Below are positions 7,745 to 45,197 of a stretch of 64,000 nucleotides of DNA, piece after piece. The notes below the pieces were generated by a model that made no database searches, was not told where the DNA came from, and saw nothing but the letters and a program-made list of their open reading frames with translations. Location of the stretch: contig JAPLOF010000033.1 in assembly GCA_026692665.1 (NCBI GenBank), positions 1 through 64,000 of the forward strand, in the 5' to 3' direction. This stretch comes from Planctomycetota bacterium. Its GTDB lineage: Bacteria; Planctomycetota; UBA1135; GCA-002686595. The position numbers and the translations under genes were made by a program. How positions within the stretch are numbered: position 1 is the stretch's first letter; the number at the start of each line of letters is the position of its first letter.

Positions 7745-8635
7745 TCAACGGCGCGCGCGGTCGAGAGCCCAGCCGATCCGGTGCCAGATCGCCGCGCTCG
7801 CGTGGTCGCGCGCGACCGCGCGCCAGAGCGCGTGCCGCGACGTGCGGTCCGGCGCGTAGGCCACGAGGAAACGGGCAACATCGCTGCGCGCCAGGGCCCG
7901 GCCATCGCGTCGCTCGCGGCGATCGACGAAGCGCCACAGGCGCCGCAGGTTCGTGCGTCGCGTGCTGTCTTGGAGCGGGATTTCGACGCGGGAACGGTCC
8001 AGGTCGAGGATCCACAGGCGCGGCGCGCCCGCACCGCGCGGCTCGACCAGGACGTTCTTCGGAGTCAGGTCGGCGTGCAGCAATCCCAGGCCGTGCATCC
8101 GGGCCACGAGCGCTCCGAACTCGCGCAGCGCCGGGCGCAGGCTGGCGCGCGCGGCGCGGCCGGCACGCACGTCGACGAGGTGGGACTCGAGGTCGCGCGC
8201 TCCACCGATCCGGCGCGTCGCGAGCGCCAGCTCGTGACCCAGGATCGCCGCGCGCCGCGCGCGCGCCGCGGCGACCGGCGGCGTGTCGACGCCGTGACTG
8301 GCGAGCCAGGCCGAGAGCGCCAGCTCGACGAACGGCCGGTTCGGATCGCGAAAGCGGCGCCCGGTCAGGAAACGCAGCAACCCGCCGTGCGTGAAGGCGC
8401 GCACGAGGATCTGCCCGTCCGCGGTCTGCGACAACGCCTTCCGACCCGCGACCTCGCTGGCGCGCAGGTCGCCGTCGGATTCGAGCGTGAAGCCGGCGCG
8501 CGCGAGTTCGGCCGCCGCCCAATCCGCGACGGCCAACCGACCGCGCGGAGTTTCCGTCCGCCGATAGCCGCGCGGAACCGCGGTCAGGTCGGGCGGATCC
8601 GCCGGCCGGTCACGGGGTTGCGCGGAGTCCGCCAT
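7745..8635 (-). CDS. Kdo kinase / lipopolysaccharide kinase family (WaaP/KdkA-like)
   Basis: A 296-residue protein of the eukaryotic-kinase-like LPS kinase family, which phosphorylates Kdo or heptose sugars in the LPS core at the cytoplasmic face of the inner membrane. Supporting segments are RAFTHGGLLRFLTGRRF (the RGG-type nucleotide loop of KdkA), FVELALSAWLASHGVDTPP, the catalytic loop LLHADLTPKNVLV (Asp as base) and LWILDLDRSRV, equivalent to DFG with the metal-binding Asp. The ATG chosen starts MADSAQPRD; the frame is open 22 codons further upstream without a better signal. It lies downstream of the KptA-like gene on the same strand. Its presence argues for an outer membrane with Kdo-containing LPS. 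The exact acceptor is not known. Confidence 0.75.
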   Translation of the reverse strand: MADSAQPRDRPADPPDLTAVPRGYRRTETPRGRLAVADWAAAELARAGFTLESDGDLRASEVAGRKALSQTADGQILVRAFTHGGLLRFLTGRRFRDPNRPFVELALSAWLASHGVDTPPVAAARARRAAILGHELALATRRIGGARDLESHLVDVRAGRAARASLRPALREFGALVARMHGLGLLHADLTPKNVLVEPRGAGAPRLWILDLDRSRVEIPLQDSTRRTNLRRLWRFVDRRERRDGRALARSDVARFLVAYAPDRTSRHALWRAVARDHASAAIWHRIGWALDRARR

Positions 8636-8713
8636 CGTGCGAAGTGCTCGTGCCGGCTCACCGCACGGCGCGGCGCGCCGCGAGGGTGAGCCGAAGCCCA
8701 CCCCCGCGCGGGA

Positions 8714-9040
8714 TCACAGGATCCCCGCGCCGAAGCCGCCGTCATCGGCCGGAGCCTGGCGCTCGGGCTTGCGCTCCTCGACGCGCGGCGCGGGCCGCGG
8801 CGCCGGTTCCGGACGCTGGGCGGCCGGACGCTGCGGCGCCGGACGGGCGCTTCCCCCGTCGTCGACCCCCAGGCCGAAACCGCCCCCACCGCCGTCGCCT
8901 TCGGAGCGGCGCGGTGCCTCGAACTGCGGACGCGGAATGTCGTCCCGGCGCGCGGCCGGACGACCCTCGTCCTGCGGGCGCGACGGCCGGTCGGGGCGGC
9001 CCTGCGGCCGGCCTTCGCCGCGATCGTCGCGCGGGCGCTA
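8714..9040 (-). other. in-frame continuation of the KptA-like tail beyond a TAG codon
   Basis: Beyond the TAG at 9038-9040 the same frame stays open for 107 codons to a TGA. The repeat carries straight through the stop: RPRPDDRPRFD, stop, RPRDDRGEGRP. It continues Arg/Pro-rich, then has two related glycine motifs, GGGGFGLGVDDGG and, at the very end, DDGGFGAGIL. The repeat register puts an acidic residue where TAG stands, so a single G-to-T change from GAG would explain it. The alternatives are a genuine nonsense mutation, a base-call error, or TAG read-through. If joined, the full product would be 517 residues. Confidence 0.65.
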
Positions 9041-10267
9041 GTCGAAGCGCGGACGGTCGTCCGGACGCGGACGCTCGTCCGGGCGCGGACGGCGATCGTC
9101 CGCCCGCGGTCGATCGTCTTGACGCGGTCGATCGTCCTGACGCGGACGATCGTCCTGACGAGGTCGCTCTTCCTGGCGCGGTCGCTCTTCCTGACGCGGT
9201 CGATCTTCCTGGCGCGGACGTTCCTCGAAGCGCGGACGGTCCTCGCGCGCGCGCTCGGGCCCGCGCGGACGGTCGTCGTACGGACGCTCGGGAGCGCGCG
9301 GGCGCTCCTCGGCGCGCGGGGCTCCGCGGTCCGCGGGGAAGGCCCGCTCGGGCGCGCGCCGTTCCGACGGACGCTCCTCGCGACCGCGATCGGGAGCGCG
9401 GTCGAAACCGCGTCCCGCGTCGCCGCGGCCACCTGGAGCTCCACCCGACGGAGCGCCACGGGGTGCGCGGTCCTCGCGCCGCGGCTCCGGTCGAGCCGGC
9501 GGAGCGGGGCGGTACTCCTCGCGCATCGGCGGCGCCTCTTCGTAGTCCTGGATCGGGGCCGGAGCGCGCTCGTCGGCGCGACCCGCGGGAGCGGACTCTC
9601 TCGGCGCGCCCTCGCCACGGCCACGACCGCGGCGACCGCGGCGGCGGCGCGGGCCGTCGTCTCCCGGCGCCGGCGGAACTCCGCCCTGCGGATGGGGCTC
9701 GTAGCCCGCGGAGGCCTCGGTGGGCACGCCCGCGTCCACCTCGAGGTGCGATTCCTCGTCCTCGGGATGCGCGTAGACGACTTCCTCGCGCGCATGCCGG
9801 ACGTGCGCCGGCCGACCCGAGGCCACGCCGCGGTGTCCCTGCGGGGCGGCGCCTTCGAGGAACTGGGTCGGGATCGGGTCCGAGAGGAACAGGGAGATCC
9901 GATCGTAGAAGTTGATGCCCGCTTCCCAGGCATCCAGCGCGTTCACCACGATCACTTCGTGTTCACGGGCCGTGCGCTGCGCCGTCTCGAGCGCGTCGTC
10001 GGGCGTCAGCGCGAGGTGCAGGAAGCGGCGGCGACCCGGACGCAGGCCGTAGCGGCGCGCGCGGTCGGCGTCGGCGCGCGAGACGCCGACGTACAGGCGC
10101 TCGGGCGGACGCGCGGGTTCGCCGGGCTGGACCTCGATGGAGTGTCCGTACAGCGCGCGGATCCGATCGTCGGCGATCTCGTAGCGCTGGCGGTCGCCGG
10201 ACTCGAGGTGCCGGAGCATGTAGGCCAACGAGCGGGTAATGCGTTCGATCAGTGCGGGATGCGTCAT
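9038..10267 (-). CDS. kptA: KptA/Tpt1-like RNA 2'-phosphotransferase with Arg/Asp/Pro repeat tail
   Basis: Residues about 1-135 match the Tpt1/KptA family, which removes an internal RNA 2'-phosphate using NAD+, giving ADP-ribose 1'',2''-cyclic phosphate. Visible family motifs are LAYMLRH (conserved Arg-His), DDRIRALYGHS (Arg and His of the active site), LYVGVSR (equivalent to LYHGTS), GLRPGRRRFLHLAL and the closing FYDRISLFLSDPIPTQFLE. The segment between LRH and YEI is much shorter than in typical KptA, so the N-terminal lobe is reduced. From about residue 170 the protein is disordered: acidic and Pro-rich, then RRRRGRRGRGRG, then hexapeptide repeats of the RPRQDD type up to an in-frame TAG. 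The basic tail may bind RNA (inference). The Kdo-kinase-like gene follows in the same direction. Confidence 0.75.
   Translation of the reverse strand: MTHPALIERITRSLAYMLRHLESGDRQRYEIADDRIRALYGHSIEVQPGEPARPPERLYVGVSRADADRARRYGLRPGRRRFLHLALTPDDALETAQRTAREHEVIVVNALDAWEAGINFYDRISLFLSDPIPTQFLEGAAPQGHRGVASGRPAHVRHAREEVVYAHPEDEESHLEVDAGVPTEASAGYEPHPQGGVPPAPGDDGPRRRRGRRGRGRGEGAPRESAPAGRADERAPAPIQDYEEAPPMREEYRPAPPARPEPRREDRAPRGAPSGGAPGGRGDAGRGFDRAPDRGREERPSERRAPERAFPADRGAPRAEERPRAPERPYDDRPRGPERAREDRPRFEERPRQEDRPRQEERPRQEERPRQDDRPRQDDRPRQDDRPRADDRRPRPDERPRPDDRPRFD
9041..9238 (-). repeat. 18-bp coding repeat encoding RPRQ(D/E)(D/E) hexapeptides
   Basis: About ten diverged copies of an 18-bp unit encode RPRFEE, RPRQED, RPRQEE, RPRQEE, RPRQDD three times, RPRADD and related forms. 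The phase is kept in multiples of three, so this is a protein repeat expanded by slippage rather than a CRISPR-like or intergenic array. One more unit continues past the TAG at 9038. Confidence 0.85.
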
Positions 10268-21255: not shown

Positions 21256-22362
21256 TCAGTCCTGGAGGTTCGCTCCGAAAGCCAGGGGCTTCGCCGGAGG
21301 CGGAGGCGGTTCGCCGGTGACGTCGAGGATCGCCAGGACGTCGAGTTCCCGGCAGACACAGCCCACGCCCAGGAGCTCCGACAGGGAAGGCCGGGTCGCC
21401 CCGCCCTCGCCGTGGATGGCCTCCTTGACGTAGGTGCCGTGCTCGGTCCGCAGGCGGACGCGCAATTCCCCGGGGTTCTCCGTGGGCTCGAACGCGAGGA
21501 ACTCGATCCAGCGCTCGCGTTCCTTGTCCGCGCGGCGGTGGGCGACGCGCGCCGGCGTCTGTTGCACGACCTGGAGGCGCTTCCCGACGAGCGCCGCGTG
21601 CAGCGCGGGGTCGACCGGCGCCTCGAGCGCGACGAGCGCCTCGTACTCCTTGGCGTGCGGCTCCTCCTTCAGGACGCGGACGCGCGACTTGTCGGACCAG
21701 TGGAGACCGCGGATCTCGAGCCGGCCCGCGTTGCGCCGATTGATCTCGGCCTCGACGGCGGCGAGGTCCACGTCCAGGATCTTCGGGCTCTCGATCTCGA
21801 AGACGAACGGGCGGCCCTCGCCGAGCATGCGCACGTCGAGGTCCTCGCGGCCCGCGCCGTGGAACTTGTTGCGCCGCGTCTTGAACGCCGCGCCGAGGAC
21901 CCAGCCCACGAGTTCCTGCACGGACTCGCGCGTGAGCTTGCCGAAGCCCTCGCAGCGCGCGCAGTTCCGGCGTCGTCGCGGGTGCCCCTTGCACTCCGGG
22001 CAGAAGAAGACGGTCTGGGGCAGGTCGCGCGTGAGCTTGCGGTAGCGTCCCTCGACGAAGAGCTTCACGCGCGGCAACTCGGGCTCGCGGCCGTGCGACG
22101 GGCGGTCGCGGCGCTGCAGCGGCGCCAGTTCGTCGCGGTGCGGTCCGGAGCGTCCCGGCGCTGCGCTCGCGGACTCCGCGGCGGCTTGGTCTTCGGCTTC
22201 GTCCAGCGCTCCGTCCTCGAACCCGGCGTCGTGGCCGGCCACTTCGGAGTGCGCCGGGCCGTCCCCGTCGGGTGTCGGGCCCGCGCCGGCCCGCCGAGCG
22301 GCGTCGGAGGCCTCGCTCGACGCCTCGCGCCCTTCGTCCCGCGGGTTTCCGTTTTCACTCAT
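21256..22362 (-). CDS. pus10: Pus10-type tRNA pseudouridine synthase
   Basis: A 368-residue protein with the catalytic core of Pus10, which isomerises uridine 54/55 in the T-loop of tRNA in archaea and eukaryotes. The defining motif GREDLDVRMLGEGRPFVFEI is present, with the expected catalytic Asp in R-E-D (about residue 174), followed by LKEEPHAKEYEA and the closing LRTEHGTYVKEAIHGEGG and PSLSELLG. Two CxxC pairs (CPEC and CARC, about 117-135) form a probable zinc knuckle. The first 90 residues are acidic and low-complexity, and the THUMP-containing N-terminal domain of archaeal Pus10 is not visible. The gene diverges from lgt across a 129-bp gap. Target RNA and position are inferred from the family. 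Confidence 0.85.
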   Translation of the reverse strand: MSENGNPRDEGREASSEASDAARRAGAGPTPDGDGPAHSEVAGHDAGFEDGALDEAEDQAAAESASAAPGRSGPHRDELAPLQRRDRPSHGREPELPRVKLFVEGRYRKLTRDLPQTVFFCPECKGHPRRRRNCARCEGFGKLTRESVQELVGWVLGAAFKTRRNKFHGAGREDLDVRMLGEGRPFVFEIESPKILDVDLAAVEAEINRRNAGRLEIRGLHWSDKSRVRVLKEEPHAKEYEALVALEAPVDPALHAALVGKRLQVVQQTPARVAHRRADKERERWIEFLAFEPTENPGELRVRLRTEHGTYVKEAIHGEGGATRPSLSELLGVGCVCRELDVLAILDVTGEPPPPPAKPLAFGANLQD

Positions 22363-43364: not shown

Positions 43365-45197
43365 ATGCACGCAGAAATTCCCACGATGCCGACCCCCGAA
43401 GTCCCGACCGAAGCGCCCAACGGATTCGCGACCCTGGGCATCGCGCCCGAACTCCTGGCCGGGCTGACGACGCTCGGCTACGAGGAGCCCACGCCGATCC
43501 AGCGCGCGGCGATCCCGGCGCTCATCGGCGGTCGCGACCTGCTCGGGCAGGCGGCGACGGGCACCGGCAAGACGGCCGCGTTCGCGCTGCCGCTCCTCCA
43601 CGTGACCCCTGCGGGGCCGCTGGCACCGGGCCGACCGCGCGCTCTCGTCCTCGTGCCGACGCGCGAGCTGGCGATGCAGGTCGCGGCCGCGATCCACAAG
43701 TACGGCAAGGTGCGCAACGCGACCGTGCTGCCGATCTACGGCGGCCAGTCGATCTGGCAGCAGATCCGCGTGCTCGACCGCGGCGTCGAAGCCGTCGTCG
43801 CGACGCCGGGTCGCACCGTCGACCACCTCGAGCGCGGCACGCTCGTGCTCGACGACGTGCGCCTGCTCGTGCTCGACGAAGCCGACGAGATGCTCGACAT
43901 GGGCTTCGCCGAGGACCTCGAGAAGATCCTGTCGCGCGCACCGGCGACACGGCAGACGGCCCTCTTCTCGGCCACCATGGCGCCGCGCATCAAGACTCTG
44001 GCGAACCGGCACCTGAAGAACCCCGTGCAGATCTCGATCGAGCGCGAGCGCACGGCAGCGGGCGCGCTGCCGCGCGTGAAGCAGATCGCCTACGTCGTGC
44101 AGCGCGCGCACAAGCTCACCGCGCTCGGCCGCGTGCTCGACATGGAGACCCCGACCTCGGCCATCGTGTTCTGCCGGACGCGCCTGGAGGTCGACGAGGT
44201 CACCGAGTCGATGAACGCGCGCGGCTACCGCGCCGAGGCGTTGCACGGCGGCTTCCCGCAGGAACAGCGCGACCGCGTGATGGCGCGCTTCCGTGACAAC
44301 CGCTCCGATCTGCTCGTCGCGACGGACGTCGCCGCGCGCGGCCTGGACATCGACCACGTGAGCCACGTCGTGAACTTCGACGTGCCCACGGAGCCCGAGT
44401 CGTACGTCCACCGCATCGGGCGCACGGGACGCGCGGGACGCGAGGGCGTCGCGATCACGTTCGTCGAGCCGCGCGAGCAGCGCCTGCTGCGCAACATCCA
44501 AGATGCGACGCGCCAGAGGATCCCGGTCGAGACGATCCCGACCGTCGCCGACCTGCGCAACCGCCGGCTGGAGCTGACGCGCGCCTCGTTGCGCGAGACG
44601 GTGCTGGGTGGCGATCTCGACGCGTTCCGCAGCGTCGTCGAAGGCCTGGCTTCCGAGTTGGACTTGATGGACGTCGCGGCCGCCGCCGTGAAGCTCGCGC
44701 ACGAAGCCCAGCACGCCGCATCCGGCGGTCAGGCCGACGATCAGGACGTGCCGTTCGCACCCCCGCGCGAGGAACGCCGGGAATCCCCGGGCCGCCCGGC
44801 CTGGACAGGCCCCGGGCCCGCCGCGCGCGGCCCCAAGGCGCGCGGCGGGATCCGCGCTCCGAACGAGCGCGGCCCCGCGGGTCCGCGAGACCGCGGGCCG
44901 CGCCCGAACCCGCGCGACGACGCACCGCGCGGCGGACCGCGCGACGAAGTCCAGCGCGGCGGATTCGAGACCACCCGGATCCACCTGAGCGCCGGCCGCT
45001 TCCAGTCCCTGCGCCCGGGCGACCTGGTCGGCGCGATCGCGGGCGAGACCGGCCTGCCCGCGGGCGTCGTCGGCGCGATCGAGATCGCCGATCAGTTCTC
45101 CCTGGTCGACGTCGCGGCCGAGCACGCCGAGCGGATCGTGGAGGCTCTGAGCCGCACGAAGATCCGCGGGCGGCGGGTGACGGTCCGCATCGTCTAG
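43365..45197 (+). CDS. DEAD-box RNA helicase with DbpA-type RNA-binding domain
   Basis: A 610-residue ATP-dependent RNA helicase of the CsdA/DbpA class, acting in ribosome assembly and RNA turnover. In order: the Q motif region GYEEPTPIQRAAIPAL, Walker A AATGTGKT, PTRELAMQ, VLDEADEMLDMGF (DEAD), FSATMAP, VFCRTRLEVDEV, DVAARGLDI and HRIGRTGR. A disordered Arg/Gly/Pro linker of about 90 residues (from about 460) leads to a C-terminal DbpA RNA-binding fold, RIHLSAGRFQSLRPGDLVGA to the end. A GATACT box lies 12 bases before the ATG; a second in-frame ATG seven codons later is the alternative start. Confidence 0.93.
   Translation: MHAEIPTMPTPEVPTEAPNGFATLGIAPELLAGLTTLGYEEPTPIQRAAIPALIGGRDLLGQAATGTGKTAAFALPLLHVTPAGPLAPGRPRALVLVPTRELAMQVAAAIHKYGKVRNATVLPIYGGQSIWQQIRVLDRGVEAVVATPGRTVDHLERGTLVLDDVRLLVLDEADEMLDMGFAEDLEKILSRAPATRQTALFSATMAPRIKTLANRHLKNPVQISIERERTAAGALPRVKQIAYVVQRAHKLTALGRVLDMETPTSAIVFCRTRLEVDEVTESMNARGYRAEALHGGFPQEQRDRVMARFRDNRSDLLVATDVAARGLDIDHVSHVVNFDVPTEPESYVHRIGRTGRAGREGVAITFVEPREQRLLRNIQDATRQRIPVETIPTVADLRNRRLELTRASLRETVLGGDLDAFRSVVEGLASELDLMDVAAAAVKLAHEAQHAASGGQADDQDVPFAPPREERRESPGRPAWTGPGPAARGPKARGGIRAPNERGPAGPRDRGPRPNPRDDAPRGGPRDEVQRGGFETTRIHLSAGRFQSLRPGDLVGAIAGETGLPAGVVGAIEIADQFSLVDVAAEHAERIVEALSRTKIRGRRVTVRIV

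Follow-up and report, generated by a model that had tools for sequence, protein, structure and literature searches.

The kptA locus

The window, a 64,000-nucleotide stretch of contig JAPLOF010000033.1 from a draft planctomycete genome, contains on its reverse strand a kptA/Tpt1-like gene, a kinase gene downstream of it and an archaeal-type Pus10-like pseudouridine synthase gene on its upstream side (Table 1). The preliminary description reported that kptA is cut short by an in-frame TAG followed by 107 open codons and a TGA, and this is confirmed in the assembly sequence. The extension begins RPRDDRGEGRP and ends DDGGFGAGIL, and both copies of the glycine motif that had been noted in it are present (FGLGV and FGAGIL); as both lie within the extension, the TAG removes both. 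The open frame itself is rejected as a sign of selection, because when the 107 extension codons are shuffled the frame still stays open in 40-50% of cases, and the case for a truncation is instead made by the conserved C-terminus described below.

Table 1. Features of the kptA region and of the Pus10-like gene in the window.
Feature	Position	Strand	Basis
kptA/Tpt1-like gene, cut short by TAG, 409 codons	9038..10267	-	ORF; PF01885; same-genus identity
In-frame TAG	9038..9040	-	Sequence and translation
107 open codons following the TAG in frame, then TGA at 8714-8716	8717..9037	-	Translation
RPRxDD-type low-complexity repeat, 18-base unit, 9.4 copies	9048..9220	-	Tandem Repeats Finder
Internal FGxG[LIV] copy, FGLGV (context GGFGLGVDD)	8864..8878	-	Translation; counterpart in 46/53 closed homologues
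C-terminal FGAGIL motif	8717..8734	-	Translation; terminal motif in 51/53 closed homologues
Junction where 120 bases (40 codons) are missing in frame from the RNA-binding (winged-helix) lobe, residues 20/21	10205..10210	-	DNA alignment with G001
Kdo/WaaP-like kinase gene, downstream of kptA	7745..8701	-	PF06293, E 6.9e-22
Archaeal-type Pus10-like tRNA pseudouridine synthase ORF, true start probably inside, ends FGANLQD	21256..22362	-	TIGR01213, 258.7 bits (cutoff 200); PF21238
C-terminal motif variant on Pus10, FGANL	21265..21279	-	Sequence

Pfam family PF01885 (Tpt1/KptA) matches both the window protein (35 bits) and a full-length relative, L014 (67.1 bits), above the gathering cutoff of 26. 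The NCBIfam equivalog cutoffs for RNA 2'-phosphotransferase are reached by neither (76 against 279 and 75 against 231 bits for the window protein, 116 against 231 for L014), and these scores place the window kptA as a relative of the equivalog set and not as a curated member. A profile match to CthTpt1 (PDB 6e3a; E 3e-45) covers positions 9-178, and a Foldseek search with the AlphaFold model of L014 ranks Tpt1/KptA structures first (TM 0.79 by target length). In that model, built from 40 sequences, the Tpt1 domain is predicted with confidence and the tail scores low, with the last block at about 55. Arg18, His19 and Arg68 of CthTpt1, as given in PMC6333775, align with residues that are invariant across 40 sequences, and the active-site residues R19, H20 and R68 (L014 numbering) are invariant in alignment A1, the window row included. 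The KptA proteins of the intact relatives are predicted to carry out NAD-dependent removal of 2'-phosphates from RNA.

The gene is widespread in the family to which the host belongs, with kptA matches in 72 of 81 genomes, while the rest of the order has matches in just 2 of 73 genomes, both distant; the named relatives are planctomycete metagenome-assembled genomes. One same-genus genome, G001, has an intact kptA that shares 86% identity with the window gene over residues 18-173. No second kptA copy was found at the threshold used in the window genome itself (G000; 64 contigs, 89.96% complete). Two genomes (those of L069 and L071) have a second, distant KptA-like match with 29-36% identity (G075:C1:27616-28014 and G076:C128:15593-15955), and the one in G075 is interrupted by a TGA.

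A second lesion in the RNA-binding lobe

The window kptA also lacks 40 codons in its 5' part, a loss that was absent from the preliminary description. The distance from the RH to the GHS motif is 22 residues in the window protein and 61-62 in 69 of 69 relatives (four raw values of 50 were corrected to 62, the script having matched a later RH in sequences that are full length), such that the deletion is confined to the window gene among the 70 loci examined. It corresponds to L014 residues 21-60 and falls within the RNA-binding lobe, which PMC6333775 places at residues 1-85 of CthTpt1. The window protein therefore does not have a complete RNA (winged-helix) lobe together with its NAD lobe. The 120 bases removed are in non-repetitive sequence and the frame is kept.

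The core of the gene has a dN/dS of 0.094 relative to G001, and we conclude that constraint on kptA lasted until recently. In the tail the ratio is 0.43 before the TAG and 0.41 after it. As for the GAG codon from which the preliminary description would derive the TAG, the G001 tail has diverged too far around this site to be matched codon by codon with confidence. With the TAG lesion and 40 codons of the RNA-binding lobe lost, kptA is most likely non-functional in the window genome.

The preliminary description had offered truncation, a wrong base or read-through as explanations of the TAG. The first two stand, and kptA here is either recently degraded or misassembled, both of which fit. Because the genome is an approximately 90%-complete draft, both lesions could be artefacts of assembly or consensus, with the gene intact in the living organism, and such an origin would suit the strongly constrained appearance of the kptA core and the presence of the gene throughout most of the family. 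The region is evidently hard to assemble: 17 of the 70 extracted loci leave their contig within kptA, mostly in the repeat tail (L004, L008, L011, L013, L015, L018, L046, L048, L054, L057, L059, L061, L071, L073, L078, L080 and L083), and the repeats therefore seem to break assemblies. However, this reading calls for two separate errors within a single gene, one of them an in-frame loss outside any repeat, and in an informal comparison the syntenic genes on either side show nothing similar. We consider it somewhat unlikely that both lesions are errors.

Read-through, the third suggestion, or a recoding of the TAG that would yield short and long isoforms, is not supported and is very improbable. 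The frame after the TAG is open, the motif is preserved and the tail dN/dS is equal on either side, but a young lesion would give the identical dN/dS pattern. Stops at or near this site are absent from the relatives, and among the other closed homologues just one masked tail has a stop before the motif; the genome encodes release factor RF1 (428 bits, cutoff 423.25); and the RNA lobe has been deleted independently. TAG is also an ordinary stop codon here, ending 6 of the 37 window ORFs in a heuristic gene call (kptA included), one of them, at 43365-45197, a DEAD-box helicase gene that looks normal, and it serves the same role in the kptA genes of relatives. On these grounds we reject recoding, and the TAG appears from the sequence comparisons to be a lone lesion in a degraded or misassembled gene.

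A conserved peptide at the C-terminus of KptA

To define the ends of the homologues, 70 of the 72 loci were extracted; 53 have their stop codon on the contig (closed) and the 17 that run off within the gene were dropped. The motif FG.G[LIVMF], followed by no more than two residues and then the first stop, ends 51 of the 53 closed tails and is represented in 34 of 34 genera, the two tails without it being those of the window and of L082, which is masked. A second, internal FGxG[LIVMF] lies 45-74 residues from the end in 46 of the 53. None of these homologues ends at the position of the window TAG. The earlier suggestion that the final glycine motif is a functional C-terminal peptide, missing from the truncated form, is thus strongly supported. 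It is highly improbable that the motif is a by-product of the low-complexity composition of these Gly-, Arg- and Pro-rich tails, as shuffling them gives an expectation of 0.002 terminal motifs against 51 observed, none of 38 tails from other DEAD-box helicases has it and Pus10 carries it without a Gly-rich tail (see below).

A DEAD-box helicase and Pus10 share the peptide

Genomes were scanned at the DNA level for the motif next to a stop codon, using FGxG[LIV] plus stop in six genomes and FGAG[LIV] plus TAA or TGA in the 81 genomes of the family. The latter search gives 58 matches compared with 13 for a reversed control, and the enrichment does not extend to the rest of the order, where 73 genomes give 13 matches and the reversed control 17. 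Sorted by reading, the 58 comprise 18 KptA proteins, 21 DEAD-box helicases, three Pus10 proteins, five unassigned pieces of tail that lie at the edge of a contig, and a remainder of 11, a number close to the 13 control matches. L169 is identified as a DEAD-box helicase by Pfam. In G066, which is a single contig, FGxG[LIV] directly followed by a stop ends three long ORFs (L111, L116 and L120), and these are a DEAD-box helicase, Pus10 and KptA.

The helicase with the motif is DeaD-like. Seventy of 71 rows were examined, and after 13 tails that leave the contig or the fetched stretch were dropped, 38 of 57 closed tails (23 of 36 genera) end in the strict motif and 16 have an internal copy. Pus10-like proteins have matches in 78 of the 81 family genomes, an archaeal type of enzyme in a bacterial host, and among the 70 examined the strict motif ends 40 (28 of 39 genera), with a looser FGxx[LIVMF] near the end in 63. 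The strict motif is accordingly missing from 19 of the 57 DeaD-like and 30 of the 70 Pus10 tails. Pus10 bears its motif on an end of about 20 residues without an RG tail, and an AlphaFold model of a Pus10 relative has a good fold with its last 19 residues at 65 and 48.

The window genome does not follow the strict pattern for either protein. Its Pus10 ends FGANLQD (FGSNLLD in G001), and the DeaD-like helicases of both G000 and G001 lack the motif; another DEAD-box helicase ends FGTGV in G000 and FGVGL in G001. The idea that the motif always moves to another helicase where the DeaD-like protein lacks it is only partly true: the g1, g6 and g42 genera fit, and there is no terminal motif in 18 closed tails from genomes picked mainly for a DeaD-like helicase without it. 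As a control, 40 tails were taken from other DEAD-box helicases; the terminal motif is on none of the 38 that are closed, although three of those counted as misses (L351, L367 and L369) have a non-terminal FGxG[LIV]. The motif status of DeaD and Pus10 is moderately correlated, with both having it in 24 cases, neither in 11 and the mixed classes contributing 8 and 6 (Fisher p 0.013, uncorrected for shared ancestry).

Gene neighbourhood

In all 46 genomes that have Pus10 and kptA on one contig, the Pus10 gene is on the kptA strand and upstream, at a median distance of 10.1 kb. The kinase gene follows downstream, again on the kptA strand, in 42 of the 48 loci with room for it. Its product scores best as a Kdo-type kinase, though its 76 bits fall short of the curated cutoff of 142, and a relationship to ArkI is unsupported by either a PDB sequence search or NCBIfam. 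From this gene order the Kdo/WaaP-like kinase is a possible functional partner of KptA.

A proposed docking peptide

What makes the TAG valuable is the C-terminal peptide to which it led, one common to three unrelated RNA enzyme families within one planctomycete family. On balance we favor the interpretation, with some confidence, that the window kptA has a recent nonsense lesion or an assembly error together with the loss of 40 codons, and that the TAG removes a bipartite docking peptide. Such a peptide would consist of the internal FGxG[LIV], a spacer rich in Pro, Glu and Ala, and the terminal FGxG[LIV] no more than two residues from the end. An intact relative would use its Tpt1/KptA domain to strip 2'-phosphates from RNA and could use its RG/RD-rich tail, predicted by AlphaFold to be disordered around the motif, as a flexible tether that binds RNA. 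Its terminal peptide may dock into a putative receptor that the DEAD-box helicase and Pus10 peptides also use, such that docking of all three would gather these RNA enzymes into one assembly.

A conserved peptide at the C-terminus of several unrelated proteins is what would be expected of a docking signal, and a common docking site would be the simplest account of its presence on three enzyme families. What the analysis shows directly are the lesions, the conservation of the motif, its sharing among three unrelated enzyme families and the predicted disorder; docking, a receptor for it, an assembly of the enzymes and the RNA substrate are inferences. Docking of the motif on the protein's own KptA or Pus10 domain is not seen in the AlphaFold models, where both ends have low confidence, and because the motif is predicted to be free in both it weakly suggests a fit to binding another protein.

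Alternatively, the FGxG[LIV] ends could be condensate stickers or a stability signal, and not a peptide for one specific receptor. Aromatic-glycine motifs in disordered tails of this kind are often linked to condensates, and the KptA tails are both RG/RD-rich and predicted to be disordered. However, a motif that sits within two residues of the end and has nearly invariant F, G and G residues suggests recognition of the terminus by a pocket, and the short end of Pus10 carries the motif with no RG tail at all; this alternative is in our view unlikely.

Returning to the docking peptide, we propose more tentatively, and at somewhat less than even chances, that the FGxG[LIV] terminus is the address tag of a previously undescribed RNA-enzyme assembly in this planctomycete family. 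KptA, one DEAD-box helicase and the archaeal-type Pus10 would be brought together by a putative hub whose pocket accepts a free C-terminus, and the kptA-adjacent kinase may write the 2'-phosphate that KptA erases. The shared end-peptide and the gene neighbourhood offer a direct handle on the natural role of bacterial Tpt1/KptA. In the searched set of PMC full texts, which is incomplete, we found no paper on FGAGL, FGAGI or FGLGI in this sense, none that combines Pus10 with planctomycetes and none that combines planctomycetes with DEAD-box proteins and a C-terminal motif.

Comparison with known systems

According to PMC9095486, natural 2'-phosphate RNA substrates of the thermophilic archaeal and bacterial KptA homologues were unidentified before the archaeal tRNA site that it describes, at which the ArkI kinase of thermophilic archaea writes a tRNA 2'-phosphate and KptA erases it. 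The planctomycete loci share the KptA eraser with that reversible system, and a kinase gene adjoins kptA. ArkI is of a different kinase family (COG2112) from the Kdo-type neighbor; since the neighbor is not an ArkI relative by the tools used, a writer and eraser pair is a lead only.

The Tpt1/KptA RNA 2'-phosphotransferases (CthTpt1, 6e3a; Thermococcus kodakarensis KptA, 9ld*) are matched by the KptA proteins described here in predicted fold and in active-site residues. The solved chains (6e3a, 9ld*) end at the domain, unlike the planctomycete relatives, which carry on for roughly 110-430 more residues as a disordered tail rich in RG/RD, mostly with a bipartite FGxG[LIV] ending. Unlike the solved proteins, the window kptA is without about 40 of roughly 85 RNA-lobe residues.

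The gathering of nucleic-acid enzymes by short conserved peptides is familiar from the C-terminal tip of SSB and from the RNase E microdomains of the RNA degradosome. These are likewise short conserved peptides within or at the ends of disordered tails, and differ from FGxG[LIV] in sequence. The arrangement also differs from that of SSB, in that the SSB tip sits on the hub, whereas here it is the clients that carry the peptide and the hub that would provide the putative receptor.
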